Positions 1 through 63,066 of a stretch of DNA of 64,000 bases are shown here, piece after piece. Location: the NCBI GenBank assembly GCA_951799425.1, contig OX637393.1, positions 21,679,744 through 21,743,743 on the forward strand, written 5' to 3'. The first letter of the stretch is position 1. Every line of letters starts with the position of its first letter. A program made the position numbers and the translations under genes. A model generated the notes under the pieces. That model was not told the DNA's origin, did no database searches, and was given only the letters and a program-made list of their open reading frames with translations. Origin of the DNA: Ilex aquifolium. Taxonomy: Eukaryota > Streptophyta > Magnoliopsida > Aquifoliales > Aquifoliaceae.

Positions 1-947
1 TCTTAGGAGAGACTCATGATTGTACAAAGTACCTCAGCTTTGCTAGATACATTCAATTATTCAATAAGCAATCAAAAGATAAAACGTTATGCATAAATAT
101 AACTTATGAATGATTTATACATGTCCATCACCTCTTACTAAAGAGTGAATGAGAACTACTCACTCTTCATGGCTTTGGGAAAGCTAAAAAAGTGAGTGAT
201 CCTCATCCCTCAAAGTAGAGAAATTATAAGATAACGTACACTACACAATAAGCCTATCTTCGACAAAGAATGAGTGAAACACTACCCACCTTTCAAGGCT
301 ACAAGAAATTTAGAAAGGTGAGAGAGGTTCACTCCTCTAGGTGAAGAAAAAAGATTTTACAATGGAAGCTAATAAAACTAATAATAAAGTAGAAGAAAAC
401 TAGTTACTTTTGGAGGGTTTTTCCACTTCCAAAAAGATGATCTTTAACAAGTTCCAAGGGAAGGTATTTATAGGCAATAGGGGGTAAAATGACAGACCTA
501 AGTGCTTTAATTCCAAGTGAATGCCACAAAATTCGGATGGAAATGTAATCTATCTGCAGCCTGTCTGGGGTGTACTTTCGAACGCCAACATCGTTTGAAC
601 GTGGAAACATTTCTTCTTTGATGAGCATTTGAACACTATTGGAGTTTGAATGTGGTACTCATATAGCTTTTGTTATCGACAGTATCTAGCAGCAACAATC
701 CTCATGTCATCACCCTAGAAATCTCCTGGAGGTCCTCAATTATTTCAAGATGGCATTCGAACGTGGGTGCTTTGTTCCCTATTTTTTCCATTCTCTTCTA
801 GAACACGTGTGTGTTGCTTGAAAGTTTGATGTTGTTCACTTTAGGCCCTTGTACAACTTTTCCCCTGAAATGTTATCATTTAAATTCCATCAAAGCATAG
901 TTAATCTTGTAAAAGCATAGTAAGATGTGAATTTTAACTATGCATCA
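1..947 (-). mobile_element. 3' LTR of Athila-like element A (left part outside window)
   Basis: This stretch matches 15656-16639 with scattered substitutions and an 18-bp deletion near 757, so it is the second LTR of the same minus-strand element. On the minus strand the LTR starts TGATGCATAG at 947, directly after a polypurine tract. A TATA box (CTATAAATA, minus) lies at 464-472 and degenerate TTCGAA palindromes lie at 577-768, upstream of it in transcription sense. The distal part of the LTR lies beyond position 1. Confidence 0.9.
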
Positions 948-960
948 CACCCCCCAACTT
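948..960 (-). other. Polypurine tract of element A
   Basis: The minus strand reads AAGTTGGGGGGTG and abuts the TG start of the 3' LTR. The same tract precedes the D LTR at 23644-23656 and, slightly shorter, the E LTR at 63067-63078. It would prime plus-strand DNA synthesis. Confidence 0.88.
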
Positions 961-2634
961 AAATATTACTAGTCCCTAGTAATACAAAACGTTCAAATGA
1001 AAATATATTTATAATGCTATTTTCGTAGGTCATCCAGTTGCATTTAGCATATGGAACAAGCCGTTAAACTCCTAGGTTTCCCCTAACGGACAAATGTTGT
1101 CTCGTGAGGGTTTCCAGTGAAGCTACCTACAAACTCCAGTTGACAGATGTGTGTATGTAAGATTTCTTGTCAGAATGAGTTAGCACCATGATCGTTGAGA
1201 CACCCATCCCTCAATTTCGAATTGTTTCCCAAACACTTCTTTGTCATAGGTACGTACTCTATGCAAAAATAAACACTTGTTACATTGACATTTGAAATTC
1301 CCTATGTGGTAAGAATAATCAATCTAGTGACAAGAATTATTATATAACAAACATTCTTCTTTACAACCTTCCATGGGTAGCTTTGATTTCACAAACCTTT
1401 CTTAGAATTCCCTCAACAAAAATTCTCTCCGATTATAGTGACTTTCTTTCAAAGAGACATGTGATCAGAAGAATGTCAATTGCAAATTCACATGCACGAA
1501 AATTACGGGAGTAAAATCCAAGGAAAATAGACTAATCATGTTTGGCATGTTCTCATGGAGGAATATTGATACAAATAAAGTAACACTATTAACATACCCC
1601 TAATTTTGATTTACTTTCTGCACATGCATTAGACCCGAGATCAATTAGGACTTTTTCCAGGTTATAATATGGCCATGGGCGAGTGGTTAAAGAAATGACG
1701 GATGAGAAGAGTTCAGAATGGGTTATCTACTTTTGTTACAATTCTGCACATTCTCTCCTTCTTTTCTTCATCTTGTCTTTGGAAAACTCATTCGTGCTTC
1801 TCTCTCTTTTTTTTTCCCTTTTCATTTCATTCCCTTTTTCTTTTAAATCACAATTCTTTGGCTAGATTGACTTTTTTTGGATTTTCTTTATTTCTTTGCT
1901 CATCTCCTTCTACCCTTTTGTTTGCCTTTTTGCCCTTTTTTTTTTTTTTTTGCTTGGTCAAAAACATGGTTGTACCGAAAAGAATTATCATTTTTAGGCC
2001 CAATAATGGCTGACAAGGGATTATGTTGTAAAAGAAATGGTTAAAGCTCAAAAAAAAAATAAAAAATGGCCTAAAATCCTTTCTTAGGCATGTGCACATG
2101 TATTTGTCGTGTGAACAAATTCTTTGTGGGATACATCAATATACTGCTCTATTTGCATCAATCAAAATAATTTTAATAAGATTATTCAAGGATAGAAAGT
2201 GAAAGACCTTCCTTGAGTAAATGTTGATTTTCTCTCAAAAGTATCGCAAGGCTCAAAAGCTTACTACAGGATTCTTCGTTATCTCCACTGATTATGTCAA
2301 GTTTTCAAAGAATGTCGATTATATCCCGATTCCATTTTCGAGCCTGTTTATTCTGCACTTTCTTAAGAATAACAAATACTAATGTAAATTTGATATTTAA
2401 GCATAGAAAATACCATTTTTCAAGGAAATGAGGTTTTTCAATTTGGACTTGTTAGATTGGGTGTCAAAACAATCCTGTGCTTAGTCACTTTTGTAAGTAA
2501 TCTTAATATTGACATCAGTCCCATCGATCTATAACAAATAACAATGGAATGTGGAAATCTAGCACAAACAAATGTAATAAAGCTAACATCATTCATTTCA
2601 AAACGTCTCATAGTTCAAAACAAAAATACTTAAA
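961..2634 (-). mobile_element. Non-coding 3' region of element A
   Basis: This lies between the second ORF and the polypurine tract. Positions 1023-1110 form a block strongly conserved with the tails of elements D (23495-23580) and E (63164-63247). A pyrimidine-rich stretch (about 1740-1960, purine-rich on the minus strand) corresponds to the purine-rich part of the D tail at 22620-22820. I see no supported gene; the short frames here are low-complexity. Confidence 0.75.
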
Positions 2635-3350: not shown

Positions 3351-5009
3351 TGCTTGACTTATTCCGTCGACCCTAATTTCTGAACATCATCCCGTAATAT
3401 GTGTATGGCTTATACAGCTAGGTGAGTGTCACTCTACCTCAGAATAATGTAAGAAATGGGGTAAAGGTGTGTGTGGGATGAAATGTGTGTGTGTGTGAAT
3501 AAAAGTGCTCCCCAAGCACAGAGAGACTTTCGAGTGTCGTGTTTTACTTAGAATTTGTATTCCAATGTCGTTTCCTCAGGGAAGGAAGGTGAATTGTGTT
3601 GAAGGTGATTTTGGTGAAAAAGGAAAAGTGTAAAAATCTTTGAGTTTGAGTTTTGGTGAATTGTGTTCTTGATAAAAATGAAATGGAAACAAGTGTTGGC
3701 TAATCCAAATAGGTCATTGCGATAGGAATGCCAAATCAGCTCAAGACGTTCTTCCAATTGTGCCTAGATGTTCGATTGATTCGTAGGAAGCGCAGGACTA
3801 AAATGGAGGTGAGGATTCAAGCATACCCTGTGACAAGTCTACGGTGTATCAAAAACTCACAACCACGTCCACACTCAACCTAGTCAAACCAAACCGTCGT
3901 ACACTACAAGGAGGAATGAAAAAGAGTTGATTTAGCATACCCAAGAGGAATTCTCCCTTGGATTAGCCAACTTAAAGCTTAGCTACTCAGAACATAAGTG
4001 AAGTAAAGAGACATTGTGAAGAAATGAAGATTGGAACTTAAATTAATGCAAGAAAAGTTAAACTATGATGTAGTGCATTGAATACCCATTTTAAAAGCTT
4101 GAAATGAAGAAAACTCAATACAACAATGGAAGAATCTAAATTGTGTATCTAAATTTGTAATGTATTTGAAATAAATGACATTAAAGACAATAAATGAATC
4201 TTACAAGAGTATTCAAGAAGATTACAAGTGAAAATGGGTAAAGGAGAGACAAAAATCTAACTTCTCTCACTAAAAACTATCTCTTCCTCCTAGAGCTTCT
4301 CCCTCTATATCTCTCCAAAAAAATAATTAATGTCCAATGATGCTTGCATTTTCCTCCATGGAGGTCTTCGCTGGTGTGTGACAGGCCTCCCATCCATAGG
4401 AGGCTGAGTTGATGGCTTTGGGCAGGCTAGGACAGCCTACCCAGCAACTCCCAGGCTTCCCTCTTCTCTCTCCTCCTCATTAATGCTTGAGCCTTCAAAG
4501 TCTAAGCCTAGGTGTGGGGAGGCATGTCTGTGTGTAAGGGATGTCAGGGGACAAGTGGGAGAATCAATGATGGGAACCCCCAAAGTTGCAGAGCTTGAGT
4601 TGCAGAATCTGGCGTTTTCAGCAAAACCTACCGGTAGGTCGATGGCAAAACCTACAGGTAGGTTTTACTCCAGTAGCCAAAACTTTCCCAAAAGTTTCCG
4701 GTAGAACCAACTCCAGTAGCCAAAACCTACCGGTAGTTTTATGAACAAACCTACCAGTAGGTTTTTACTTGTTTTGCTTAATTCTTGGTCTTTTCACCTT
4801 CCATGCTCTCGTCAAGCCCCCCCTTCATCTCCATTGCCTTCAAGCACTACGATGGGGGCTTAACTTGCGCCATTTCTAACTATTTGCCTGCAAACATACC
4901 GAAACCTCATTAATTGTAGAAATAATGCAATTCCTCCCATATTCACCACAAAAATAAGTCTAAAAAGGGCGCAAATGTGCAAATGATGTGCAATATTTTG
5001 TGCTAATCA
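3351..5009 (-). mobile_element. Solo LTR, family D, with 5-bp TSD
   Basis: The LTR runs on the minus strand from TGATTAGCAC at 5009 to ...CAAGCA at 3351 and is flanked by GTCCC at 3346-3350 and 5010-5014. No internal region, primer site or polypurine tract is attached, so it is a solo LTR left by recombination. It interrupts the second ORF of element A. A cassette of CCTACCGGTAGG-type palindromes lies at 4627-4761. Confidence 0.9.
4627..4761 (-). promoter_or_regulatory. Palindrome cassette in D solo LTR (CCTACCGGTAGG type)
   Basis: A perfect 12-bp palindrome lies at 4627-4638, with degenerate copies at 4651-4662, about 4696-4705, 4726-4736 and 4750-4761. Two CCAGTAGCCAAAA spacers separate them when read on the plus strand. 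The other D LTRs carry GTACCGGTAC palindromes in the corresponding region instead. Confidence 0.7.
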
Positions 5010-5584: not shown

Positions 5585-5895
5585 TATTTATACCCAGGCA
5601 ACTAACGTTTGAACCTGACTGGTGTTCGAATGGTGATAGAAAATATTTTAAAAGAAAGTTCGAACGTGGAACTGGCGTTCGAACTAAGGTTGTTCCCAGT
5701 ACTTTGGTGTTCTGCAGAGATAAAAAATTATTGTAAGCTCCTCTAGTTTGAACGTGAAATGGCGTTCGAACGTGACATCTAAGTTCAAACGTCCTACTGG
5801 CATTCGAACTAAGGTTGCTACCAGTACTTTGGTGTTATGCAGAGACAAAGTACTGTAAGCTCCTATCGTTCGAACGTTAACTAGCGTTCGAACGC
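5585..5895 (-). promoter_or_regulatory. Putative internal promoter for the second ORF of element A
   Basis: A minus-strand TATA box (GTATAAATA) lies at 5585-5593, about 210 bp upstream of the ORF start at 5375. Upstream of it is an array of CGTTCGAACG-type palindromes, for example 5868-5877 and 5884-5895, plus half-degenerate copies at about 5606, 5624, 5658, 5674, 5745, 5763 and 5800. The array includes two copies of a roughly 130-bp unit that share the text CCAGTACTTTGGTGTT. The same palindrome is found upstream of the TATA box in A's LTR. Promoter function is inferred from this layout. Confidence 0.6.
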
Positions 5896-6834: not shown

Positions 6835-9194
6835 TATAAAACCCGGGTAAATTTTAACTTTTGTGAAAAAGGGCAAAACGGTAATTTGTCACTACGGTGC
6901 GGGTTGCAAACCTGAATTTTTTTAGAGCTCGGATGATGAAACGGACCTCACCGTTGGATTCGTCTCGCAAAATCTAATTACCCTATAAAATTTCGTTGAA
7001 TTCCGAGTTGTCGAAATTTTTGCGTTTTACGAGGCGGTCGGGCCTCGGGTAACCCAAAAACGAATTTTGTTAATAAAATTTTAAAATTTGAAAAATAAAT
7101 AAAGGCAAGTTAAAATAAAAATATTTTGAACTTGAACCCAAGCGAAATTACTCTTTTCGAGGCAAAAACGGACCCGGGAAAGGAGGGTCGTGTGGCACAT
7201 TGTGGACCAAGCAATTAAAGAGTATATATAGGGGCTGAAAATCTGATTTCTCGCCCATTTTTGTTCAGCCGGTTTTAACGTGAGAAAAGAAGAAAGGGAA
7301 AATCCAAGTTCTCTCCACCTTATCTCTACGATCTACGGAGATTGGGTTGTCAAATCCACTCGGGCCAAAAACAAAAGTTGTTCTCCTTGCCAAGGGCTAT
7401 AAAACCATACCAAGGAGGTCGGGTTTGGGCGAGATTTCAAGGACGGGATTTGGGCAAGTGAAGATTTTCGCTTGAATCGGGTTCTTGAAGCTTCTCAACC
7501 TCGTTTTTGCGCTTCAAGAGGTAGGGTTCCCTCCTATTTAGGTTTATTCCAAGCCTAGAATGTTTTTTGTGAAATGGGTAGGTTGATAGAATTATATATC
7601 ATTTACCTATTGTGATGAAATTGGTGAAATGGATATGGAAAATAAGTAGGAATTGCTAGTTGTGATTTCTAGAATTGGGTATGTGAGATTTACTTAATTT
7701 GATTTTGAGTTATGTAAATTGTGGGCATGTTATGTGTTTACATTATGCCTTGAGAATTAAATGTGTTATTGCTTGATTATGTGATAACATGCTTGGGTGT
7801 TGTTTCTAGATAAAATGTTGATATGCATGTATTAATATATTGACATTGTGAAAGAAATTATGAGAATTATATGCCTATGATATAATTTTCCATGAGGCAT
7901 GTGAAATGCGTTGAAATGGTTCATATGTCATTCATAGCATATTGAACATTTGGTCATTTGTTGCAATGAGACATCATATTGCATATGCACGGGAGCATAG
8001 CATTTTGTGGGTGTGTGTGCATGGTTGTTGTCAACACCACACTTGGTGGATGAAGGGTGGGCTCGAGTAAGCTTGGTCGAAGACCTGGCTGAGTCTCACG
8101 GTTTGCATGGTTAATAGGGTTGGGGTTAGTAAGAAGGGCTAGAAGATCCCTCGGGTGCAAGGCCCGGTGATTTGGATACGCACTCCGTTGGCTCGGTCCA
8201 TGAAGTGTATAGGTGTACGCGGAACCTTCGGTGGAAGTCCGTAAATTCCGTGTAGGTTGGGTGACCTTTGGTATGAGTCCATGAACATCCACCCCTACAA
8301 AGACCCTAGATTGGTAAATGTCATTTGATGTGATCATAGATGACAGATTCATACACATTGGCACTTGCATGTGTTGAGGAGATGGGAAAAACTCGTGATG
8401 ATGTGCGTGAGTGAGTCTCATCTCATTTCATGGCATGACATGGTAGATTCTAACATGGAATGCATATTCTAAATTGGAATGTTATGAGTTGTTGATTTTG
8501 GCATGTGAACATTTCATATGCATCTAGGTTGGGGAGTAGCCTCTTTAGGAGATACTCTATTGAGCGTGGCTCACCCTATACGGGAAAAATATTTCAGGTG
8601 CAGGATACACGCCGGTGGATGACTCCCAATTCGAGCCCCGTGGATGAAGAAAGCCGGAATGTGGCTTTATTTTGAGTTTTTGTAAAATTATTATGAAAAC
8701 TTAGTTTTGGTATGTAAATTCACGGAAATGTATGTAATAAAATTTGTACGGACCTTGTGTAATATGAAAATCTTCATTATACATGTGTTGGAATGGATTG
8801 GAAATGAAAAACAGGTGAAACAGGCAAAACTGGGCACGGCGTACTGGTACAGCGTACCGGTATGGCGTGGTCCAGTTGGCACAGCATACCGGTACACCGT
8901 ACCGGTACGCTTTCAAAAAATCAGAAATTTTCAAACTGTTTTGCTAAGCTTTTGGGCTATGTATTCCTTTCTTGTAATGTTATAAATGGACAATAATAGA
9001 GTACCAATAGTGGTACATTGGACCTCGGATGGGCCAACCGATTAAAAGTTTATAAACTTTATTTTTCTTTTATAGCCCCGGTCAAGGGTATGCTATTAAC
9101 ATGATGTCAGGTTGTGCGACAATCACGGGTACTTCCGGGGGTTGATGGGTTATCAATGAGTTGACAAAGGACCCTCGGTTTTAGGGGCGTCACA
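6835..9194 (+). mobile_element. Solo LTR, family B, with 5-bp TSD
   Basis: This is a 2,360-bp LTR matching the B family: an AAAACCCGGGTAAATTT start and a ...GGGGCGTCACA end. It is flanked by TTACC at 6830-6834 and 9195-9199. The first dinucleotide is TA rather than TG, probably by mutation. TATA-like TATATATA lies near 7223. It carries a GTACCGGTAC palindrome cassette at 8840-8909 that the B LTRs of element B lack. It inserted into element A in the opposite orientation. No coding sequence is supported inside it. Confidence 0.9.
8840..8909 (+). promoter_or_regulatory. Palindrome cassette (GTACCGGTAC type) in the B solo LTR
   Basis: A perfect CGTACCGGTACG lies at 8898-8909, with degenerate copies at about 8841, 8853 and 8886, a GTCCAGTTGG spacer between them and CAGGCAAAA just upstream. 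Unlike the other families, this cassette lies in the 3' part of the LTR, downstream of the TATA-like site. Confidence 0.65.
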
Positions 9195-15095: not shown

Positions 15096-16639
15096 TGACT
15101 TGATCCGAAATGTGTCCACCAAAGTGTAGGTGGTCAAGTTGTAGTTATAATCCGGTTAAGTCTAGAGTCGAATCCACATGGAACTACTATTGGTGTTTTG
15201 AAGTAATTAGTAACAGAGACCAAAGTGACTGGAACCTTTGAGATTTGAAGTTATGATGATTATAGAATTTCCTGGACAGAATATAAGATTCTCTCAAATG
15301 AAAGAATCACCATTTAGCTCGAGGATCTAGACATGTAGTCAATCATCCGGTTGTTATATTTGTGCTTGACAGCTCAATTAACCCCTATGTCAATAGCAAG
15401 TTAATTGGAGGATAAAGATGAACTGTGAGAATTAAGAGCATGACTCTGATGTCTTTGTAGAGATTTACAAGAATTGTCAGTGTCGGGACTCAACCCGTCT
15501 ACAAACAAGTAATTCTACAAATCATCCAACAACTGTTATATTATTCCATTCTTAGTTAGAGCACAATAATAATGAAGATTGAAAAGTTGTCATGAAGACC
15601 TAGCTTGAATACCTGCAAGGAACCAATGAATCCTCCTATGTCAAGAGTTAGCTTGTCTTAGGAGAGACTCATGATTGTACAAAGTACCTCAGCTTTGCTA
15701 GATGCATTCAATCATTCAATAAGCAATCAAAAGATAAAACGTTAAGCATAAATGAAATGTATAAATATAACTTCTGAATGATTTATACATGTCCATCACC
15801 TCTTACTAAAGAGTGAATGAGAAACTACTGACTCTTCATGGCTTTGGAAAATCTAGAAAAATGAGTGATCTTCATCCCTCCAAGTAGAGAAATTACAAGA
15901 TAACGTACACTACACAATAAGCCTATCTTCGACAAAGAATGAGTGAAACACTACCCACCTTTCAAGGCTACAAGAGAGCTAGAAAGGTGAGAGAGGTTTA
16001 CTCCTCTAGGTGAAGAAAGAAAATTTTACAATGGAAGCTAATAAAACTAATAATGAAGTAGAAGAAAGCTAGTTACTTTTGGAGGGTTTTTCCACTTCCA
16101 AAAAGATGATCTTTAACAATTTCCAAGGGAATGTATTTATAGGCAATAAGAGGGGATAAAAGGACAGACCTAAGTGCTTAAAGTCTAAGTGAATGCCACA
16201 AAATCTGGATGAAAATCTAATCTTCCTGCAGCCTATCTGGGGTTTATGTTCGAACGCCAACATCGTTCGAACGTGGAAACATTTCTTCTTTGATGAGCGT
16301 TCGAACGCTGTTGGAGTTTGAACGTGGTACTCACGTAGCTTTTGTCCTCCACAGTATCTAGCTGCAACAATCCTCATGTCATCACCCTAACAATCTCCTT
16401 GAGGTCCTCAATTATTTCAAGATGGCGTTCGAACATGGACTGGCGTTCGAACGTGGGTGTTTTGTTCCCTCTTTCTTCCATTCTCTTCTAGAACACGCGT
16501 GTGTTGCTTGAAAGTTTGATGTTGTTGACTTTAGGCTCTTGTACAACTTTTTCCCTAAAATGTTATCATTTAAATTCCATCAAAGCATTATTAATCTTAT
16601 AAAAAATATAGTAAGATGTTAATTTTAACTATGCATCAG
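15096..16639 (-). mobile_element. 5' LTR of Athila-like element A
   Basis: This is a 1,544-bp LTR from TGATGCATAG (minus strand, 16639) to ...TCAAGTCA (15096). It contains a TATA box at 16134-16142 and CGTTCGAACG palindromes upstream of it. It is diverged from the other LTR by many substitutions, so the element is old. It interrupts a family E LTR at 16640. Confidence 0.9.
16134..16456 (-). promoter_or_regulatory. LTR promoter of A with TTCGAA palindrome cassette
   Basis: TATA (CTATAAATA, minus) is at 16134-16142. Upstream are palindromes at 16248-16255, 16264-16273, a perfect 14-bp AGCGTTCGAACGCT at 16296-16309, and a pair at 16424-16456 separated by a spacer containing CCAGT (sense strand). 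The copies in the 3' LTR are more degenerate. Confidence 0.7.
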
Positions 16640-18192: not shown

Positions 18193-18576
18193 GTAGCTTG
18201 TTGGCAGTGAACTTAGCTACAGGTAGCACGTACATGAGCTACGGTAGCTCCTCCAAAATTTTAAAAAATTTAAAATAACTTTGCCAAGTCTTCAGACCTT
18301 GAATCCTTTTATTCAAAGGATGTAAATGGAGTAATATTATGGATAAATTGATGTATATTGGACCTTGAAATGACCAAGTGATTGAAATGTATATAGGTTA
18401 TGTGTTTGGGAGTGCCCGGTACAAGGGAGACTCTGCCCAAACTCTGTGTTGGTTACGATCCTGGTGAAGGGGATGTTATGATGTAGTGTCGGGTTATGCA
18501 GCATTCATGGGTGCTTTCGCAGGTTGATGGGTGATCACCGGGTTGACAAAGGACCCCCAGTTTTAGTGGCGTCACA
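18193..18576 (+). mobile_element. Remnant of the 5' LTR of element B2
   Basis: The 3' part of a B-family LTR ends ...GGCGTCACA at 18576, directly before a primer binding site. The left part is missing, replaced by the E LTR. The first 50 bp hold an inverted-repeat cassette (GAGCTACGGTAGCTC at about 18226-18240), in the place where the solo B LTR has its GTACCGGTAC cassette. Confidence 0.8.
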
Positions 18577-29095: not shown

Positions 29096-29104
29096 CAAAA
29101 TCTA

Positions 29105-29326: not shown

Positions 29327-29334
29327 TTTAAAAT

Positions 29335-38290: not shown

Positions 38291-38794
38291 TGTAAACCCC
38301 CACATGTTTATATTAATATAGTAATATAATTGTTCAGTAATTCTAATATATGGAATGATGTAAGAATGAACCATACAGATTATAAGAGTAGAAATAAATA
38401 CTTGGGGGACGAATTGATTTTGAAGTTTAAGTTTCGAAGGTGTTTAAGCTTGGAAGGGGTTGTTAGGCAAGTTCAAAATATTTTTAGGTCAAAATAAGAT
38501 TTCCATTGAATCCGGAAGATCGAGAAACATTGGGAGAGGTATTATGGAATGTATTAGAAGTTAGGAAGCATTTCGGAGATAAAACACATTTTTGATAGAA
38601 CTTGGGTAGAAAGAAATTTGACACTGCCTTAGTATATGGATCAAAACTTTTTAACCTGATGTCCGTTTGATCTGAAATGTTTATAGTAGATACTAGACTT
38701 CCAGGGCTACAAAAGTGTATTTCACGAAAATTTTCCAAATCGACCTCTAAATAGGCTAAAACTTCATCGGAAATTTCAGCAGAAATAGGAAGTC

Positions 38795-38968
38795 CGTTCG
38801 AACGTGAAAGTCCGTTCGAACGACAGTTCGTTCCAGTACTCTTGTCTGATGAAAAAAAAAAAGTACTGGGAGCAACTAACATTCGAACGCCAATGACGTT
38901 CAAACGTGAGCAACGAATTAGAGCATCAGATTTACGTCGGTTGGACTCCTTTCTCACCTTATAAATAC
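38795..38968 (+). promoter_or_regulatory. TTCGAA palindrome cassette and TATA of the C-like LTR
   Basis: Perfect CGTTCGAACG lies at 38795-38804 and 38813-38822, with half-degenerate copies at about 38880 and 38896, CCAGTACT near 38834, and TATA at 38959-38968. Confidence 0.65.
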
Positions 38969-39078
38969 ATAAGGGCGCCTCCCTTAGCCCCAATACAACA
39001 TTTCTAACCCTAGAGAACCTTAGAGAACAAGAAAGAAGGGGAGAAACACAAGATCAAGAAGGATTTTCACATTTGAAG

Positions 39079-43808: not shown

Positions 43809-44040
43809 ACCTTCCGGAAGAACGATAAAACCTTCCGGAAGGTCGATGACAAAAACCTTCCAGTGAGCAAAACCTTCCGGAAGGATGATAAAACCTTCCG
43901 GAAGGTCGATGACAAAAACCTTCCAGTGAGCAAAACCTTCCGGAATAACGACAAAAACCTTCCGGAAGGTTAGTGTAAAAATCCAAAAATTTCTGTTTCG
44001 CGAATGCCGGCTCTTCCTACATTATAAATACATAATGTCT
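43809..44040 (+). promoter_or_regulatory. CCTTCCGGAAGG palindrome cassette and TATA of element C (5' LTR)
   Basis: Perfect CCTTCCGGAAGG lies at 43831-43842, 43873-43884, 43894-43905 and 43958-43969, with near copies at 43809 and 43937. Spacers read GGTCGATGACAAAAACC and TTCCAGTGAGCAAAACC. TATA (TATAAATA) is at 44033-44040. The palindrome contains TTCnnGAA, the arrangement of a heat-shock element half-pair. Confidence 0.7.
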
Positions 44041-44614
44041 TCCCTTAGCCTTCATTACACACCTTAAAACCCTAGAAAACATTAGAGAGAAAGAGGGGAA
44101 GAGAAAAACACAAGATCAAAGGTGAAAAACAAGGAATTCAAGGGTGATTCAAGATCCAATCTTCATCTTCTTCACACTAAACCTAGGTTTTCAAGAACAT
44201 TGAGGTAGGGGTTTTCTCTCATTCACTTACATTGATGTTAGGGTTATGATATATATATGTTTTGGCTATCAATGGTATATATATATGCTATGGAATCATC
44301 CTCTCTTAGGCTTTTACATGTTTTGAACAAAGTGAGGGTTTAAAACCCATGAAATCTCCTTTTTATTTTGAAAAACCTTAATCTTTAGAGAGTGATGTAT
44401 TTCCTTCCTTAATGCTTCCTTTATTATGGATTTCAAAACCTTAGTGCTTTGCGTTGGGTAGAAAGATGATGTTATTGTTGATCTCATGCATTTTCTTAGT
44501 TGGTTGTGAAATTGTTACATGATGTCTATTTTGGGGATTTTGGATAGATGCTTGTAAATTGAGATGAATGTTGAAATTGTATGTTTGGATTGGATTGTTT
44601 GTGATGCACATGAG

Positions 44615-44919
44615 TGAGAGGTTCCTTGTAAGGATGCTCACCCCTTCCCAAGAGGTTCCTTGTAAGGATGCTTGGGAAGCCATGAAGTGATTTGTGAGAG
44701 GTTCCTTGTAAGGATGCTCACCCCTTCCCAAGAGGTTCCTTGTAAGGATGCTTGGGAAGCCATGAAGTGATTTGTGAGAGGTTCCTTGTAAGGATGCTCA
44801 CCCCCTTCCCAAGAGGTTCCTTGTAAGGATGCTTGGGAAGCCATGTAATGATTTGTGAGAGGTTCCTTGTAAGGATGCTCACCCATTCCCAAGAGGTTCC
44901 TTGTAAGGATGCTTGAGAA
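44615..44919 (+). repeat. ~80-bp tandem repeat in the 5' LTR of C
   Basis: Four units each contain two copies of GAGGTTCCTTGTAAGGATGC, eight in all, with GGGAAGCCATGAAGTGATTT between units. It lies downstream of the TATA box, so it would be part of the transcript. Confidence 0.9.
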
Positions 44920-45732
44920 TCAAAGATGACCTAAACGGGGGGTGGAGGTTACCCTAAAGTATGCCACCCACCGAAAGAATTGTTGGAAATTGTGAATGGA
45001 GGACTGGATTATATTTGGAAATGGTTTGATAAATGTATAGTGGTTTCTTTTACTCATTCAATTACCGTTGTTCCTTAAACTTGAGATCTACTTGAAAATG
45101 TCCTGTTTTCTTTCAAATGTTATATATATGCTATTTGTGAAAAGTGAGACCGACCTTTTTAAATGCTTTTCAAAACCTTGTTTGAGTTTGGGAGGAATGT
45201 TGCTACGGAGCCTAGTGCTCACCCCCCTACAAACAATATTTTTCAGATTATGTGCTAGGAGAGGAGTTCAGAGCTGACGAGCCAGAGCATTGGGAGGCTT
45301 CGATGGATGGGAACATAGATCCTGAGACGGTTGTGTAGGATTATATTTCCTTACGTTTTAGACTAGAGAATGTATTTTGAGACTATGTATGGTTTATGCT
45401 TTTGTTATTCCGCTGCGAAGTTACATATAATTCTTTTGGGATGTAAATGGCCATGGTTTGGCTTATTCTTTTGGGATAATGTTAAGGATAGTATATATGG
45501 TGAATAAAATGTTTTGGATTTGATGGTTAGATAGACCCGGTGTGGTCAATGCATTATAAACGTACAGGTTGTGATTTTTGGGTGGAGCTTCCTGTACAAA
45601 GGAGACTCTGCCCAAATTTTGTTAAAATTAAGAATGTTTCTTAGTTGATGGATATATATTTAGTTGCTCTCATGACATGAATGGTTTCATAGGGTAATGC
45701 CGTCCAGGGTGGTATTTGGGGCGTTACAAAGT

Positions 45733-47539: not shown

Positions 47540-48099
47540 GCGCAGCGAACTAACGGAGTAAGGACTACAATGGGGAAACTACGGAGAAGATTCAACTCAT
47601 CCGGGAGAGGCTACGCATGGCGCAAGGTAAACAGAAGAGCTATGCGGACCACAGACGAAGATCCTTGGAATTCAAAGTGGGAGATTACATGTTTCCCAAG
47701 GTGTCACACCAGAAAGGAGTATTTAGATTCGGCAAGAAGGGAAAGTTAGCACCAAGATATACCGGGCCGTTTGAAGTGATCAAAGTTGTGGGCAAAGCGG
47801 CATATCAACTTCAGTTACCGGCTCAGTTGTCCGGGGTGCACGACGTGTTCCACGTGTCGATGCTGAGGAAGTGTCAATCGGAAACAACGCCGGTCGTAGA
47901 CTTGGAAGATATAGAAATTCAAGATGGAGCGACATATGAAGAACAACCGGTGAAGATTCTCGATGCCAAGGAAAAGGTGCTTCGCAATAAAGTCATCAAA
48001 TTGGTGAAAGTGTTATGGCAACATCATGGAGTGGAAGAAGCTACTTGGGAACCGGAACTGGAGATGCGAGAGAAGTATCCGTATTTATTCGCTACTTGA
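47540..48099 (+). pseudogene. Integrase C-terminus and chromodomain of element C
   Basis: The open part from 47617 encodes 160 residues: a KSYADHRRRSLEFKVGDYMF segment, KRGKLAPRY-like text, VHDVFHVSMLRKC, and a chromodomain (VKILDAKEKVLRNKVIKLVK ... EEATWEPELEMREKYPYLF). Related text precedes it in frame from about 47555. The catalytic core is absent. The chromodomain has no stops, so it is younger or better kept than that of B2. The frame ends 42 bp before the 3' LTR. Confidence 0.85.
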
Positions 48100-48140: not shown

Positions 48141-50560
48141 TGTAAACCCCCGCATGTTTATAATTATATAGTAAAGTATTGGTTTAGTGATTCATATATA
48201 TAGATAATGATGTAAGAATAAATCATATGGATGGTAATAGTAGGAAAAGAATACTAGAGATGCATGTTGAATTTCTAAGTTAAGTTCGAAGACGTTTAAA
48301 CTTGGAAAGGGTGATTAGACAAAATTCCAAATACTTTGAGGCCAAAATAAGGTCTCCATTGAATCCGGGAGGTCGAAAAACATTGGGAGAGGTGATATGA
48401 CTTGTATAAGAGGTTAGAAAGGATTCCGGAGTTAAAATACGCTTTAGAGTGAAGTTGGGTAAAAAGTATCTTGGACACCTTCTAGTATTTTGGCCATAAA
48501 TTTTTATTCTTATGTCCAATTGATCTGAAATTTTGACAGTAGATAGTAGAAATCTAGAGCTACAAAAGTGTCTCTAATGAAAATTTTCCAATTCTACCTC
48601 TAAATGGGTCAAAAATGCGCTAGAAGTTCCAGTGAGCAAAACCTTCCGGAAGAACGATAAAACCTTCCGGAAGGTCGATGACAAAAACCTTCCAGTGAGC
48701 AAAACCTTCCGGAAGGATGATAAAACCTTCCGGAAGGTCGATGACAAAAACCTTCCAGTGAGCAAAACCTTCCGGAAGAACGACAAAAACCTTCCGGAAG
48801 GTTAGTGTAAAAATCCAAAAATTTCTGTTTCGCGAATGCCGGCTCTTCCTACATTATAAATACATAATGTCTTCCCTTAGCCTTCATTACACACCTTAAA
48901 ACCCTAGAAAACATTAGAGAGAAAGAGGGGAAGAGAAAAACACAAGATCAAAGGTGAAAAACAAGGAATTCAAGGGTGATTCAAGATCCAATCTTCATCT
49001 TCTTCACACTAAACCTAGGTTTTCAAGAACATTGAGGTAGGGGTTTTCTCTCATTCACTTACATTGATGTTAGGGTTATGATATATATATGTTTTGGCTA
49101 TCAATGGTATATATATATGCTATGGAATCATCCTCTCTTAGGCTTTTACATGTTTTGAACAAAGTGAGGGTTTAAAACCCATGAAATCTCCTTTTTATTT
49201 TGAAAAACCTTAATCTTTAGAGAGTGATGTATTTCCTTCCTTAATGCTTCCTTTATTATGGATTTCAAAACCTTAGTGCTTTGCGTTGGGTAGAAAGATG
49301 ATGTTATTGTTGATCTCATGCATTTTCTTAGTTGGTTGTGAAATTGTTACATGATGTCTATTTTGGGGATTTTGGATAGATGCTTGTAAATTGAGATGAA
49401 TGTTGAAATTGTATGTTTGGATTGGATTGTTTGTGATGCACATGAGTGAGAGGTTCCTTGTAAGGATGCTCACCCCTTCCCAAGAGGTTCCTTGTAAGGA
49501 TGCTTGGGAAGCCATGAAGTGATTTGTGAGAGGTTCCTTGTAAGGATGCTCACCCCTTCCCAAGAGGTTCCTTGTAAGGATGCTTGGGAAGCCATGAAGT
49601 GATTTGTGAGAGGTTCCTTGTAAGGATGCTCACCCCCTTCCCAAGAGGTTCCTTGTAAGGATGCTTGGGAAGCCATGTAATGATTTGTGAGAGGTTCCTT
49701 GTAAGGATGCTCACCCATTCCCAAGAGGTTCCTTGTAAGGATGCTTGAGAATCAAAGATGACCTAAACGGGGGGTGGAGGTTACCCTAAAGTATGCCACC
49801 CACCGAAAGAATTGTTGGAAATTGTGAATGGAGGACTGGATTATATTTGGAAATGGTTTGATAAATGTATAGTGGTTTCTTTTACTCATTCAATTACCGT
49901 TGTTCCTTAAACTTGAGATCTACTTGAAAATGTCCTGTTTTCTTTCAAATGTTATATATATGCTATTTGTGAAAAGTGAGACCGACCTTTTTAAATGCTT
50001 TTCAAAACCTTGTTTGAGTTTGGGAGGAATGTTGCTACGGAGCCTAGTGCTCACCCCCCTACAAACAATATTTTTCAGATTATGTGCTAGGAGAGGAGTT
50101 CAGAGCTGACGAGCCAGAGCATTGGGAGGCTTCGATGGATGGGAACATAGATCCTGAGACGGTTGTGTAGGATTATATTTCCTTACGTTTTAGACTAGAG
50201 AATGTATTTTGAGACTATGTATGGTTTATGCTTTTGTTATTCCGCTGCGAAGTTACATATAATTCTTTTGGGATGTAAATGGCCATGGTTTGGCTTATTC
50301 TTTTGGGATAATGTTAAGGATAGTATATATGGTGAATAAAATGTTTTGGATTTGATGGTTAGATAGACCCGGTGTGGTCAATGCATTATAAACGTACAGG
50401 TTGTGATTTTTGGGTGGAGCTTCCTGTACAAAGGAGACTCTGCCCAAATTTTGTTAAAATTAAGAATGTTTCTTAGTTGATGGATATATATTTAGTTGCT
50501 CTCATGACATGAATGGTTTCATAGGGTAATGCCGTCCAGGGTGGTATTTGGGGCGTTACA
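48141..50560 (+). mobile_element. 3' LTR of element C
   Basis: 2,420 bp, nearly identical to 43309-45728, followed by TSD GGGTT (50561-50565). It carries the same palindrome cassette and TATA (48641-48872) and the same tandem repeat (49447-49751). Confidence 0.95.
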
Positions 50561-52363
50561 GGGTTCCCTCCTACTTTGGTTTATTTCTAACCTATGGTGT
50601 TCGTAGGGAATGTGTGGGCTTTTTTGTGTGTTTTAAACACTTGCCTATTATAGTTGGTTTAAAGGAAATGGGTAGGTTCAATTCTAGTGTGAATTGGTAA
50701 ATATAATTGCTAGTTTGTGATTTCTTGGATGTCTTGATAATTGGGTATGTGGAAATCATGTATTTTGATTTTTTTTGAGTTATGTGACAAACTTAAGCAT
50801 TTTATGTGATTACATGATTTGGTGTCTTGAAGGTGTTTGATAAAATGCCTATGTGAAATAAAGTGTGTTAATTGCATGAGATTATGCTATAACATGCTTG
50901 GATGAAGTGGTAAAGTGAAATCATATGCTTATGATATGATTTATAATTGGAAATGTAAATGTCGATGTGTGCTTATGATATGTTGGCATTGGGGTGAATT
51001 ATGGAATTTATATGCATAAGATATGAATTGCCATGACATATGTTGAAGTATGTGGTTAAATTGATCCATATGGCATTCATTACATATGATATTTGACATT
51101 GATATGCGATGGTACATTATATTGCATTTGCACGGAGGCATCCCATTCATGGGCTTAGGCATAAGTATGGGTGTGTGTGCATGGTTAATTCAAACATCAT
51201 ACTTGGTGGTTGAAGGGTGGGCTCGGGAAAGTGGGATTGAAGATCCTACTGAGTCGCACAATTGCATGCATGGAAAAACTTGTGTCGGGTATAGCAAGAA
51301 GGGCTAGACGTTCCCTCGAGTGCAAGACCCGGTTACTGGTTTATTCACTTCCGTCGGTGCAAGTCCAAAAAAGTGAATTAGGCGTACGAAGCCGGCGGTG
51401 AAATTCCAAAATCCCTTGCCCAACAAAGACACAAGATTTTTATAAAGATTTTGTTTTATAAACATACTCTTGGATGTGCTACATCCAACAATGCTTGATT
51501 TTTATAAACACATGATTTTATTTCAAACAAGCATTGGAGGTAATTCATCTATGATGAAGGTTTTACACACTTGCATTGCATTGTGTGGTGGGAGCCGGTG
51601 AGGGCTCGGGTTGAGTTGCATGAGTGAGTCTCATCTCATTTCATGGCATGACATGATAAATTCCAACATTGAATGCATATTCTTGCTTGGAATGTTATGG
51701 ATTGTTGATTGTTGCATGTGTACACTCCATATGCATCTAGGTGGGGAGTAGCCTCTGTAGGGGATACTCTATTGAGCGTTGCTCACCCTATACGAGAAAA
51801 CATTTCAGGTGTGGGTTTTATGTCGACGGACGACACTCATCCGGGCACTTAAGGAGGAAGAAAAGCCAAGATGTGGCTTTATTTTGAGTCCTTGTAAAAT
51901 TATTGTAAAAATTATGATTTTTAAGTATGTAAATATTTGGAAATAGTCGTAATGGGACTCATATGGACTGTTTTGAATGTAAATTTTCTGATGTATGAGT
52001 TTGATATGAGTTTGAGTAGGTTTTCTCAAAACTCCATATTTATGGACTATTTTTAATCTAACCTTGCATATAATTTTGTGGGTATGGATAAATGGACCCG
52101 GTGTGGTCAATGTTTACTCATAAATGGACCCGGTGCGGTCATTGTTTTATATTGGGCCTCGGATGGGTCATGTGAATGTATATTGCACAGGTTGAGTTTT
52201 GGGTAGAGCTCCCCGTACAAAGGAGACTCTGCCTGATTTTTGTTCAATTATGGACCCCGATAAATGGGGCATAACGGCGCGATATCGAGTTACTCGGTAT
52301 CCACGGGTATTCCGCGGGTTGATGGGTAATCAATGGACCCCCGGATTTTGGGGTGTCACAGCT

Positions 52364-56036: not shown

Positions 56037-59000
56037 TGTAAAACCCGAGTGAATTTGAACTTTTTCTGAAAAAAGGCAAAATAGTAATTTGTCACCGCTA
56101 TGCGGATTTGAAATAAGTATTTCTCTAAACCTTGGATGAGGAAACGGACTTCACCATTGGATTCGTATCGCGAAATCTAGTTACCCTGTCAAATTTCGCC
56201 AAATTCCGAGATAGTCGAATTTTTCACGTTTTTCGAGACGATGGGCATCCGGTGACCCCCAAAAATGATTTTTTAATAAAATTTTAATATTTGGGAAATA
56301 ATTTAAAAAAAGTTGAAATAAAAATATTTGAGCTTGAACCGGAGCGAAATTTAATTGTTTTGGGGCGAAAACGGACCCGGACAAATAGGGGACACGTGGC
56401 GCGACTCGGGCCAAGTCTTTAAAACTATAAAAATGGTAAAATATCTAATTTTCAGCAGATTTCTCTGCTGAAAACCAGTTTCTTGAACGTTGGGAGAAAG
56501 AGGGAGAGACAAGAGGAAAATCCAATCTTTTTTCTTTGATTCCCGGAGTTCCGTTAGTCGGAATTCATCGGACCAAGAATTAAACTTCATCTACGCGATG
56601 AGGGCTATGCAACCACACCAAAACCAAGGGATTTCAGCGAAGATCCAAGGAGGGATTTTGGAGAAATCAAAGGTTTGGTCTTGAATCTTGTTCTTGAAGC
56701 TTCCTACAGGTGTTTTACGCTTCAAAAGATAGGGTTCCCTCATACTTTGGTTTATTTCTAACATATGGTGTTCGTAGGGAATGTGTGGGCTTTTTTGTGT
56801 GTTTTGAACACTTGCCTATTATAGTTGGTTTAAAGGAAATGGGTAGGTTCAATTCTAGTGTGAATTGATAAATAGAAATTGCTAGTTTGTGATTTCTTGG
56901 ATGTCTTGATAATTGGGTATGTGGAAATCATGTATTCTGATTTTTTTTGAGTTATGTGACAAACTTGAGCATTTTATGTGATTACATGATTTAGTGCCTT
57001 GAAGGTGTTTGATAAAATGCCTATGTGAAATAAAGTGTGTTAATTGCATGAGATTATGCTATAACATGCTTGGATGAAGTGGTAAAGTGAAATCATATGC
57101 TTATGATATGATTTATAATTGGAAATGTAAATGTCGATGTGTGCTTATGATATGTTGGCATTGGGGTGAATTATGGAATTTATATGCATAAGATATGAAT
57201 TGCCATGACATATGTTGAAGTATGTGGTTAAATTGATCCATATGACATTCATTACATATGGGACTTGACATTGATATGCGATGGTACATTACATTGCATT
57301 TGCACGGAGGCATCCCATTCATGGGCTTAGGCATGAGTATGGGTGTGTGTGTGTGTGTGCACGGTTAATTCAAACATCATACTTGGTGGTTGAAGGGTGG
57401 GCTCGGGAAAGTGGGATTGAAGATCCTACTGATTCGCACGGTTGCATGCATGGAAAAACTTGTGTCGGGTATAGCAAGAAGGGCTAGACGTTCCCTCGGG
57501 TGCAAGACCTGGTTACTGGTTTATTCACTTCCGTCGGTGCAAGTCCAAAAAAGTGAATTAGGCGTACGAAACCGGCGGTGAAATTCCAAAATCCCTTGCC
57601 CAACAAAGACACAAGATTTTGTTAAAGATTTTGTTTTATAAACATACTCTTGGATGTGTGATGAGCACAAAATATTGTATATTTCAAGGCCTCATTACAT
57701 GCATTTTAACTCAACTTTTGCATCTAAGTACTTAGAGTTGGCCGATTTTATGAATAATGTTGAATTCTCGATATTGCATGTTTTTATAGCTTAAATCATT
57801 TATTTTAGGACCTTGCAACTATGATGGATGTGTGGTGAGAGCATGTACACATTACATGAAGATTTGGAGGCTTAAAAGTGAAGAAATCAAGGAGGTATTG
57901 GTGTTTGGGAACAAAAGCGCCAGCAGCCACACCACTGGGTTGAAGAGCCTCGGTTTTCCTCCATTTTGACCATGATCCACTTCGAATCTAAAAAAGTTCA
58001 AAACATGAAAGTTGTAGATCTGAATGTCTTCTCTATTGTGTCAAAATTTCAGCTCAATCGGACGGTTGGATCAAACGTTATGTCAATTCTACGAAGACTT
58101 ATCCGGAGCAGAAAAACCATACCGGTACGCCGTACCGGTACTGTACCGTACCGGTACGCCGAAGCTACTGGTGTACGAACAGCCCAAAAACGCCTGCAGC
58201 TCATCTCCACTTGCTTGGGATCCCACCTACACTTCTCCCACTTGCCCCCCAACATTTCCTTACACATTTGCATGCCTCCCTTACACAATTAAAAGACTTT
58301 GGAGGCCATTACATTAATGAGGATGGGAGAGAAGGGGTAGCCTGGGGGAGGCTTGTCCTAGCCTGCAACACCCATCCATTCAGCCCCCTATTGATGGAGG
58401 CCTTTCACACAGCTAGGGGGGACCACCATGCACGAAATTTGAAGGCTCACACTCCATATACTCAGCATTATTCAGCATTGCAGGGGAGTGGCTACCTAAG
58501 CTTAGTTTTAGTTCCATGTAGAAGATGATAAATAGTGTAATGTAAGTTTATGTTTTTGCATTTTCCTTTCCATTTCAATTGTTGTAAGTTTTAAACTTCT
58601 TGTAATCTTCATTCCTTGCACTTTAATCTTAGTTGTTTCAAGTTTATTCCAAGTTTACTTGCATGTTCTTCATTTTACCATTGTTACTTCAAGTTTTCTT
58701 CATTTCATCTTTTAAAATGGGTTTTGAATATTTTTCTCCATAGTTCAAGTTTTCTTGCATCGAGTTAAGTTTCATGCTCCATTTCAATTATGTCCATTTA
58801 CATTATGCAATGTCTTTCCTTTTACCATGAGTATCTAGATTTTAAGTTGATTAATTCAAGGGAGAACTCCTCTTGGGTGTGCCACTTCAACTCTTTTTCA
58901 TTCCTCCTCTCAGAGTACGATGGCTCGGTTTGACTGGGTTGGGGTGAGGACATGGTTGTGAGTTCTTGATACACCGTAGGCATTGCCACGGGGTATGCTT

Positions 59001-60380: not shown

Positions 60381-61255
60381 CCCCAAGCGTAGAGAGACTT
60401 GCAATGTCGTGTTTTACTTGGAATGAGTATTCCAAGATCGTCTCCTCAGGGAAGGAAAGGTTGAATGTTTTTAAAAGGTGATTTGTAAAAAAGTGACAAT
60501 TGAAAAATCTTGTGATTTTAAGTTTGGTGAGTTGTGAGTTAAGAAATATGCTAGAAAACAAGGTTGGCTAATCCATAGAGGTCATTCCAAATGGAATTCC
60601 AAATTGACTCATTTCATTCAACCAATGGTGTCTCGGTGTTTGATTGATTCGTAGGAAGTGAGGGACTAATGTAGCTGTGTTGGGCAAAAGCATACCCCAT
60701 GACAAGTCTACGGTGTATCAAAAGCCCATAACTATGTCCACACTCAACCTAGTCAAACCAAATACTTTACACTAGGAAGAAGAATGAAAGATAGTCGATT
60801 TCACATACCCAAGAGGAAATCCCTCTTGGATTAGCCAACTAAGAGTTTAGCTATGCATGATAAAAGAAAGAACATACATTAAGTAGAGAAACATGATAGT
60901 GGATTCAAAGATAGACTTGTATAAATGTAAAAGAAAGTTTAACTACAAAAGAAAAGGCATTAATGCCCAAAATGTAAAGCTTAAAGGAAATAGGAACCTA
61001 ATGTGAAAACAAACTACAAGAAACTTAGCTAAACTTGATTACAACTTGATTAAAAGAAATTAAAGTGCAAGGGGGAAAGATTACAAATAAAATGGAGCTT
61101 ACTACAATGAAATGGTGAAGGAAAATGTAAAACTCAGCTTTCTCTCTCTAGAACTTCATCTTCTACCTTAGAGCTTCTCTCTAAAAAAGTCTATATTCTA
61201 AAAATGAGTGTAGGAAGATGTATATTTTCGTCCATCCCCTCTCTCATAGCATGAG
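60381..61255 (-). mobile_element. Right piece of the D LTR split by element B
   Basis: It continues the piece at 42584-42607 and contains the D landmarks (TCGTGTTTTACTTGGAATG, CCTCAGGGAAGG, TCTCTCTAGAACTTCATCTTC). It is cut at 61256 by the E LTR. Confidence 0.8.
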
Positions 61256-63066
61256 TGACTTGATTCGCACTATTTTGTGATCTGAATTATATTATACACC
61301 CAAGTATAAGTGGTCGAATTGTAGTTTTCTCGGTTTAAGTCCGAGTATCGATCCCACGAAGAGTTTGAGTAACTTAGAATTTAAAAGAAAAACAGTAAAG
61401 TTGTTTAAAGCATTATAACAGTTGATAACTTGTGATATGAGCTTAGATTGACAACTAGTTTAATTAAATAAAGTATGTTGATGAGTGTGTTAACAACAAG
61501 AATATTAAAGATACCCTTCAGTTTGGAGATTCCATATGTTTATATTGGTTAAGTACTGTAAATGCCACCTTACATCAATTAACTTCCATGTGACTGGCAA
61601 GTTAACTGGTAGGTATGATATATATAAACCATCACACAACAACTTTTTAGGTTAGCTGGCGATATCCATGACAATTGATTAATCTAAGCAAACTAGAAGG
61701 ACAAGCCATTCATGAGGAATACTTGAATTATTCAATTGATCTCTTGATAGTAAGTGCGTACATAATAAACCATAACTCAACAACTTCTTAGGTTAGATGG
61801 TGGTAATAATAAACCATAACTCAACAACTTCTTAGGTTAGCTGGTGGTATTAAGTCATAACACAACAACTTCTTAGGTTAGCTGGTTATAGATGTGCTAA
61901 TTGACTAATCCAAGCAAACCAGAAGGACAAGCCATTCATGAGGAATACTTGAATTACTCAATAGGTCATTTGTGATATATATATATATATATATATACCA
62001 ATTAGACATTCTCAGCGTTCCGGTGGAGGATAAACCATACCGATAGGAACACCTTAGATATTCGACTAGCAATATAGTTATATATAGTAGTTAAACAACC
62101 CTAATAACCCAGAAGGACAAGCCATTCATGAGGATCATTTAGGTTTTGTACCATGCATCAGTAAAACATCCTCAGCGTTCCGGTGGAGGATAAACCATAC
62201 CGATAGGAACACCGTAGATATTTAACCGGTAGGTTGATGATGCACTGATGACATAATTGCAGGCACAACACCGAAATTATGTACATCACTGTATCATGCA
62301 TGAAACACATAATACATATATAAATAACTGTATGAATAAAACATCAGCATTTCTATAATCTAACCAATACTATACATATGTTCACCCTTCACTGAAGGGT
62401 ATAAGTGACTACTCACGCCCCATTGCTACAGACAAGCAAGGAGTGCGGGTAGATTTCATTACAACAACAAATAATAGACTGACGCTTCTTTCGCAAGGAA
62501 CAATTGAAACACAACCACCTTTACTATCAATTAAGACAAAAAGGTGGCGGCAGTTCAACTATCCGAATAGAAAGACATACAAGAAATGTAGAATTACAAA
62601 GTTTAGGCTGGAGAGTAGGATGGACCAGGTCTTGAATTGTTTTATGACTTCCTCTTTTTCTCTCTTTGGATTTCTCTCTAGAGCTCTTGGGTGACTGGCC
62701 TTTTTAAGAATGAAGGAGGCGAGGTCTATTTATAGGCACTTGGAAGAAGATGAGCTCAAACCGCCTGGGGTGGCCGTCCGGACGCCACCACCACCGTCCG
62801 GACGGTGGTGCCTTGCAGTAGGTTCCATGTGTCGCATGCTGGCTTCTCCCTTGGTTTATATTACACTTTGCTCCTTTGTTGTTTCAAACTTTGCAATATC
62901 CTTCCTTGTATTTTCTGGTAATTCTGTATTAAACCCTGAAATTTCAGACATAACATTTGTAAAACCCGAGTCTATGCACAAACCTTAATTCATAATTTTT
63001 AATTGTTTTATCTTACAAAGTTGATTACTTAATCATTTTAATTTACATACTAGTTAGGGTTAATCA
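61256..63066 (-). mobile_element. 3' LTR of Athila-like element E
   Basis: On the minus strand it runs from TGATTAACCC (63066) to ...TCAAGTCA (61256), the same end octamer as element A's LTR. TATA (CTATAAATAG) lies near 62728-62738. It contains ~50-bp tandem units with AACAACTTCTTAGGTTAGC (61630-61880), an (AT)n run at 61975-61997, two copies of CAGCGTTCCGGTGGAGGA (62012, 62172) and a palindrome cassette at 62775-62810. Confidence 0.88.
62775..62810 (-). promoter_or_regulatory. TCCGGA palindrome cassette of the E LTR
   Basis: A perfect CGTCCGGACG lies at 62775-62784 and a perfect 22-bp palindrome centred on CCGG at 62789-62810. They are about 40-80 bp upstream (minus sense) of the TATA box. 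Confidence 0.7.

Follow-up and report, generated by a model that had tools for sequence, protein, structure and literature searches.

How retrotransposons keep a promoter working while their hosts learn to silence it is an open question, which is taken up here with a 64,000-nucleotide stretch of the Ilex aquifolium genome (contig OX637393.1 of assembly GCA_951799425.1, positions 21,679,744 to 21,743,743; hereafter the window, whose own numbering is used throughout). In this stretch, the initial annotation had described clusters of short perfect palindromes with a central CpG in the long terminal repeats (LTRs) of nearly every retrotransposon family, mostly just upstream of a TATA box, and had proposed that they are a replaceable control module. 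The palindrome clusters are genuine and far above chance, each array examined repeats a single core, and related LTRs can carry different cores at the same place.

CpG-centred palindromes in the window and in the genome

All perfect palindromes of at least 10 bp within the 64-kb stretch were listed and compared with 30 Markov simulations at each of the orders 1, 3, and 5. Among the 128 palindromes found, 32 are centred on CpG, against simulated means of 6.8, 8.4, and 10.2 for the three orders and a simulated maximum of 20. Six of the 32 come from the second of the two LTRs of a single element, and the 26 that are left without them still exceed this maximum. Palindromes centred on AT and TA are slightly over the simulations, being 42 and 39 versus means of 27-34 and 23-30, which is partly due to AT runs. 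Moreover, 29 of the 32 hold one of four CpG-centred cores (GTTCGAAC, TACCGGTA, TTCCGGAA, and GTCCGGAC), the exceptions beginning at 2717, 27213, and 41055. For the palindromic 8-mers of the window that recur within 200 bp, with A/T-only words omitted, the counts are 29 for a CG centre, one for GC, none for AT, and one for TA.

The clusters are also not confined to the window. The source genome of 800 Mb was searched with the core words and with controls (for CGTTCGAACG, the same word read backwards), a close pair being two copies of a core separated by a gap of 2-32 bp. The word CGTTCGAACG has 32,359 exact copies (control, 278), and close pairs number 18,228 for GTTCGAAC (control, 69) and 46,939 for TACCGGTA (control, 28). 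A survey independent of the words of the window, in which palindromic 8-mers recurring within 200 bp were ranked, leaving out A/T-only words, covered 20 stretches of 10 kb at preset places and six more. In the first 20, the leading words are the window's own cores, with 18 pairs in five stretches for TACCGGTA, nine in one for TTCCGGAA, and six in two for GTTCGAAC, any other word containing G or C having at most three close pairs. Sorted by centre, the close pairs are 34 for CG, one for GC, 13 for AT, and eight for TA. In the six further stretches, TACCGGTA leads the non-AT words again with six pairs, and the next are CGGTACCG, ATTCGAAT, and TGAGCTCA with two pairs each, and the set may thus include further cores. 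Seven of the 26 preset stretches carry at least one array of two or more cores, with 11 arrays in total. Arrays comprise from 2 to 10 cores, the latter number being reached in one preset array (locus L022), and element C of the window has 12 over its two LTRs.

One core in each array

In a first pass over 29 arrays, any cores lying within 260 bp being counted as one array, none was mixed. The same is observed in a set of 31 arrays covering the four cores, where 120 of 120 adjacent pairs share one core; this set includes nine arrays (L025-L033) fetched around GTTCGAAC matches and two from the genome search with CGTTCGAACG, while the second LTR of element C was left out of it, as was locus L004, which overlaps another. 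Across the genome, GTTCGAAC and TACCGGTA neighbour each other at the same close distance 4 + 2 = 6 times, compared with 6 + 9 = 15 for the control and with 18,228 and 46,939 pure pairs of the respective cores.

Different cores between homologous flanks

The LTRs are referred to by lineage, T1 being that of element C and of the LTR formerly labelled C-like, next to T2, D, and A. The T1 lineage has, at one and the same position beside homologous flanks, arrays with four different cores, three of them intact and one decayed. By BLAST, the flank upstream of the array of element C (43310-43797) matches five other LTR pieces, in addition to the second LTR of the element, and also 71 bp of a D LTR. 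Two of the five, L010 (83.8% identity) and L034 (81.5%), carry TACCGGTA arrays; another two, 38292-38761 (76.6%) and L022 (75.7%), carry GTTCGAAC arrays; and the fifth, 30291-30557 on the minus strand (73.5%), is followed by decayed words read by eye as GTCCGGAC-type. Element C itself has a TTCCGGAA array behind the same flank. The downstream flanks of L010 (91 bp), L034 (334 bp), 38956-39057, and L022 also match by BLAST, whereas for the 30291-30557 copy the likeness is seen in the alignment only. The idea of an interchangeable module at a common position thus has stronger support than was visible to the initial annotation, both flanks being homologous around different cores in T1 and mixed GTTCGAAC/TACCGGTA pairs being nearly absent from the genome.

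The same arrangement is found elsewhere in the genome. A T1 flank word followed at 15-45 bp by HCCGGD gives 1363 + 1343 matches, overlaps within one LTR included, and followed at the same distance by GTTCGAAC it gives 4 + 11, one of which is the L022 copy; both controls give 0. The 22 HCCGGD matches listed correspond to 17 separate places, where the first unit begins with CTACCGGT in eight, CGTACCGGT in three, GGTACCGGT in two, GTGTACCGG in three, and CCTTCCGGA in one. A search with 238 bp of the element C flank retrieved 3812 candidates, and the 40 that were scored, including the two of the window, are all 99-100% identical. This abundance of near-identical copies suggests a recent spread. 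At C19:12705664-12713973 and C1:28180209-28262108, the T1-flank matches are evenly stepped (about 4.0 and 5.1 kb), which resembles tandem elements sharing LTRs.

A second case comes from the D lineage, in which BLAST aligns the arrays at L022:215-578 (TTCCGGAA) and 4626-4736 (CTACCGGTAG) on one side, with flanks 72.7% identical over 161 bp. Both keep the spacer GGTTTTGGCTACTGGA in the alignment, and one core turns into the other when A and T are exchanged symmetrically. The flanks on the other side of this pair gave no match, which makes the D case weaker than that of T1.

Spacing, symmetry, and spacers of the units

The distance between units tracks the core across lineages for two cores, GTTCGAAC and TACCGGTA, and not for TTCCGGAA. 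The TACCGGTA units of T1, T2, and D are found at spacings of 12-13 and 31-32 bp; a third spacing, 16 bp, occurs in T1 and D and is missing from T2. Units of GTTCGAAC are spaced by 17-19 bp in both T1 and A, with differing spacer letters, and a spacing of 34 bp is common in the L025-L033 arrays and occurs once in A. In L025-L033, 18-bp pairs alternate with 34-bp steps, and the spacer is often T-rich, for example TTCTGTTTTTGC. Among the first 50 places listed for each core, all within the initial 16 Mb of contig C1 and many of them related, the GTTCGAAC spacing is 17-19 bp in 34 and 34 bp in 15, and the TACCGGTA spacing is 12, 13, 16, 31, or 32 bp in 40, of the 10-40 bp possible.

A symmetry beyond the core is observed for TACCGGTA. 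At 46 sites, its successive outer arm pairs are symmetric in 39, 27, and 21 cases versus 26.1, 17.3, and 11.6 expected, values that at most 1 in 5000 shuffles equals, and the first outer pair is G..C in 30 sites and C..G in eight. For GTTCGAAC (92 sites), conservation spans 10 bp with no symmetry outside, like a bounded site.

The CCAGT motif that had been reported to separate units is also real, since ACTGG is present in 21 of 29 arrays and CAGTA in 24 of 29, compared with 22% and 23%, respectively, of 580 length-matched random stretches. Also, an inverted repeat, CAGTACTTT...AAAGTACTG, lies between units in A-type and T1 arrays (5700-5850 and 38830-38875 in the window; 700-900 in L030). Being common to both lineages, it hints at a module exchange between them.

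Position relative to the TATA box

The position of the arrays was evaluated in 20 of them, nine from the window and 11 from the 26 preset stretches. Within 350 bp, the word TATAAAT follows 10 of the arrays, at a distance of 42-165 bp, and precedes one, against 3.7 on each side at random (P 0.003). A similar bias is observed for TATAAATA (downstream of seven, upstream of none; P 0.002), and a lesser one for TATAAA (12 and six; P 0.08); TATATA shows no position bias, with five on each side. The location upstream of a TATA box therefore applies to about half of these arrays.

A link between core type and TATA box was considered and set aside. Although TATAAATA accompanies 0 of 12 TACCGGTA arrays and seven of the eight others (Fisher P 0.0001), the difference shrinks with TATAAAT (3/12 versus 7/8, P 0.02) and declines further as the motif is loosened. 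The two T1 copies with TACCGGTA arrays (L010:202-295 and L034:4224-4333) are without TATAAATAC, a word that the remaining four copies have close to the corresponding position.

Decay of the central CpG

Near the arrays, CGTTCGAACG occurs in 77 exact copies and in 37 variants with one changed letter, and CpG transitions account for 31 of these variants. In the other words, with classes assigned by reading, the corresponding figures are 6 of 12 for CGTACCGGTACG, 0 of 6 for CCTTCCGGAAGG, and 1 of 6 for CCTACCGGTAGG. Methylation-type decay is clear, then, for CGTTCGAACG only, and the suggestion that the arrays are symmetric CpG sites used for silencing finds support in this word and not clearly in the other three.

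Elements and arrays of the window

Element C lies on the plus strand. Its LTRs of 2420 bp (43309-45728 and 48141-50560) are 99.6% identical and flanked by a 5-bp target-site duplication, GGGTT, at 43304-43308 and 50561-50565, and the word TGGTATCAGAGC at 45733 would be its primer site, which we take to be of the plant initiator tRNA-Met type. Each LTR has six TTCCGGAA cores (43811-43971, with spacings of 21-22 and 42 bp, and 48643-48803), and TATAAATA follows the first array at 44023-44030. The protein matches, namely an RVP_2 protease and, in the open reading frame (ORF) at 47554-48096, a Tf2-1 SH3 domain (85.4 bits) and a chromodomain match below its cut-off (17.9 bits against 25.1), place the element in Ty3, and it is most likely a chromovirus. 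The LTRs also hold a separate tandem repeat with a period of 80 bp (44561-44926 and 49393-49758), downstream of the TATA box.

The carriers had been described as both gypsy and copia. The first part agrees with element C; the second is not borne out by the supposed copia member, which has only a lone 10-bp palindrome, CGCTCGAGCG, at 27213-27222 on the plus strand, with TATAAATA at 27357-27364. In its neighbourhood (25600-33000), the scan of 8 of the 11 ORFs of at least 75 amino acids gave no copia-domain match. The families are also less unrelated than had been stated, because the LTR of C and that of C-like are homologues with 76.6% identity, and about 200 bp beside the LTR are common to A, D, and E (74-76%). 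Moreover, the LTR ends near 18577 and 52360 are without an intact array, so that "nearly every" family was an overstatement; in a T2-type LTR of this kind, the words AGCTACAGGTAGC and GAGCTACGGTAGCTC at 18220-18252 look like decayed TACCGGTA-type units.

In the T1 lineage, the C-like LTR has two GTTCGAAC cores 18 bp apart at 38795-38822 on the plus strand, with TATAAATA 138 bp downstream, and the decayed GTCCGGAC-type words GCATCCAGACGC and GCGACCGGACGA, assigned by eye, lie at 30220-30283 on the minus strand, with TATAAATAC downstream. Family A, on the minus strand, comprises an LTR pair (1-947 and 15656-16638, 89.5% identity) and an internal ORF with a PF20167 match below the cut-off. Its copy at 1-947 has decayed words of GTTCGAAC type, as read from the sequence (for example, CGTTTGAACG and CATTCGAACG at 575-775), and the other has five GTTCGAAC cores at 16248-16453, with TATAAATA at 16134-16141 on the same strand. 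Five more GTTCGAAC cores, with the CAGTACTTT...AAAGTACTG repeat between units, are located at 5658-5895 on the minus strand, TATAAATA lying 66 bp beyond. The D lineage is represented by TACCGGTA arrays at 4626-4736 (the core occurring as CTACCGGTAG, with CCAGTAGCCAAAAC spacers; minus strand, by homology to the other D copies), 24116-24181 (four cores, as CGTACCGGTACG), and 58120-58158 (three, as CGTACCGGTACG), both of the latter on the plus strand. The T2 lineage has three TACCGGTA cores at 8855-8909 on the plus strand, with TATAAAT 73 bp downstream. Finally, family E has two GTCCGGAC cores at 62775-62810 on the minus strand, the second within a perfect palindrome of 22 bp, and TATAAATA 42 bp downstream.

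Discussion

The explanation that we propose is that these cassettes are arrays of putative sites for homodimeric, sequence-specific DNA-binding proteins, located in the U3 of the LTRs, where they would serve as an enhancer of the LTR promoter. There would be a limited set of cores, at least the four described here, each read by its own factor or by its own member of a factor family. One LTR would hold the sites of one factor, the units being multiplied and homogenised through local duplication, and LTR lineages would change factor through the change or exchange of the entire array. We regard this proposal as about evenly poised between holding and failing. Arrays of sites for dimeric proteins typically look like this, with a bounded and exactly symmetric word repeated ahead of a TATA box, at recurring distances and with spacers of varied letters. 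Such an array would agree with the palindromic form, with the central CpG and, in two of the cores, with the distances between units. That several readers exist, with each LTR committed to one, is suggested by the sharing of cores among several lineages together with the near absence of mixing. Protein binding, the activation of transcription by it, and the role of host factors as readers are what we infer from the sequence. A broader version, in which a few mutually exclusive palindromic addresses common to several LTR lineages would sort the retrotransposons into regulatory classes across the phylogeny, each with its own dimeric reader, and related LTRs would pass from one address to another by symmetric changes or by exchanging the array as a unit, is put forward tentatively, with more doubt than belief. 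As for the identity of the factors, heat-shock elements (nTTCnnGAAn) were discarded, as TTCCGGAA fits them and the other cores do not; the sites of LOB-domain and SBP-box proteins were considered too, and the literature search gave nothing decisive on them among the titles listed.

Several observations weigh against this proposal. The spacing of TTCCGGAA breaks the rule, being 21-22 and 42 bp in T1 and mostly 30-32 bp in D, and there is no excess of arm symmetry for this core (17 sites) or for GTCCGGAC (five sites). TATAAAT is found behind only 3 of 12 TACCGGTA arrays, where a promoter role is accordingly weaker. The genome-wide exclusion concerns one combination, GTTCGAAC/TACCGGTA, and tandem duplication would suffice for purity alone. 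Also, as CCAGT spacers are common to several lineages, the modules may have moved by recombination, making the shared spacing less telling. In addition, the arrays and genome places sampled are partly kin, many coming from the same families, and are not independent.

Some of these points are what would be expected from neutral drift and recombination, where a palindromic repeat is copied among LTR families by template switching and homogenised without function. Duplication can yield both purity and unit spacing, and spacers such as CCAGTAGCCAAAACC recur beside different cores. Nonetheless, duplication explains the purity within an array and not the symmetric arm changes of TACCGGTA, which would be unexpected without selection on symmetry, as would the appearance of a different symmetric core next to a spacer that stays the same; the one-sided placement relative to TATAAAT also speaks against it. 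We consider this neutral origin distinctly unlikely, if less so for the confinement of the decay bias to one word, which at the same time lowers the weight of the idea that the arrays are targets or sensors of methylation through their CpG sites as such, with the surrounding letters of minor importance. For the latter idea speak the central CpG of every core and the 31 of 37 departures from CGTTCGAACG. CpG decay is expected for any methylated repeat, the remaining words have no clear CpG bias, and the letters flanking the CpG are confined to a few cores, with GTTCGAAC and TACCGGTA unmixed, for which we find it very improbable.

The arrays could instead act as RNA, by folding into hairpins between units that are a source or target of small RNAs, with selection acting on the element and on its silencing. 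LTR arrays are also transcribed within the 3' LTR, and the palindromic cis-region of maize Sireviruses has reportedly been described as a small-RNA target by Bousios et al. in 2016. In the predicted folding, 18 of 20 arrays are more stable than dinucleotide shuffles, at z <= -2.1 (range of all 20, -1.4 to -10.2), and the available part of PMC10760457 reports an excess of small RNAs on the maize palindrome clusters. But repeated palindromes fold strongly by default, and any palindrome could form hairpins, yet CG centres far outnumber GC, AT, and TA centres in the preset stretches; nor would a small shared set of cores, core-specific spacing, or exclusion be predicted. This role is in our view unlikely. 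A further alternative is an anti-silencing address, in which a VANC-like protein encoded by the element would read the array of its own family, strip silencing marks, and co-evolve with it. The targets of VANC, as presented in the available parts of PMC5735166 and PMC10398659, are tandem repeats whose units co-diverge and differ among relatives, the same pattern as here. The cores, however, cross lineages (TACCGGTA in T1, T2, and D; GTTCGAAC in A and T1), which favours a common reader over one per element, and VANC motifs are not termed palindromic in the available text of PMC5735166. It would be a rather improbable explanation.

Comparison with known systems

The closest precedent for the arrays is the palindromic repeats of Sirevirus LTRs. 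The accessible portion of PMC2829016 describes, in these Ty1/copia elements, high-copy CpG-rich palindromic boxes that are found for the most part in the LTR's upper half, ahead of TATA, that differ between elements, and whose binding factor is unknown; they are presented there as specific to Sireviruses and absent from classic Ty1/copia. The arrays of I. aquifolium are partly similar, in that palindromic, CpG-rich boxes are repeated in the LTR and, for about half of the arrays, stand upstream of TATA. However, their host element C is Ty3 and not Ty1/copia, the other array-bearing families being only partly typed. A CGG-CCG signature is given in the same portion for all but one of 13 Sirevirus elements, and here a CCGG centre is present in three of the four cores, GTTCGAAC being without it. 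Against the eight or more copies per element by which the Sirevirus system is recognised, element C has 12 and one preset array has 10, most arrays here being in undelimited elements. Further differences are that the cores shared here include GTTCGAAC and TACCGGTA and that related copies switch core, with mixed pairs of GTTCGAAC and TACCGGTA nearly absent. In the maize Sirevirus LTRs, the cis-region likewise consists of palindrome clusters, although a single motif, CACCGGACNNNGTCCGGTG, dominates there as the most abundant, according to the available part of PMC10760457.

Other systems share fewer traits. As described in the part of PMC5735166 at hand, VANC/VANDAL has tandem arrays of short motifs, with units alike within an array and differing between related elements; yet these are DNA transposons with an element-encoded reader and no tie to LTR promoters, and the word palindrome is absent from that text. 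In some groups of Del elements, the 5' portion of the LTR holds a variable segment rich in CpG, whereas the eudicot group is without a CpG island, and the available text of PMC4029996 does not use the word palindrome either. Among the papers listed, the literature search found no description of such palindrome arrays in Ty3 elements, and a search on four of the words gave nothing relevant by title among the matches listed. As far as these searches show, the Ty3 host, the limited set of shared cores, their exclusion, and the switching between them are new.

The finding extends to a Ty3 element a feature that had been called Sirevirus-specific. Moreover, a few interchangeable types of site that hardly mix, and whose close pairs in a single genome run to tens of thousands, make the question of how retrotransposons keep their promoters testable, in terms of the proteins that read each type, of a possible common type among active families, and of a possible succession from silencing to switching.

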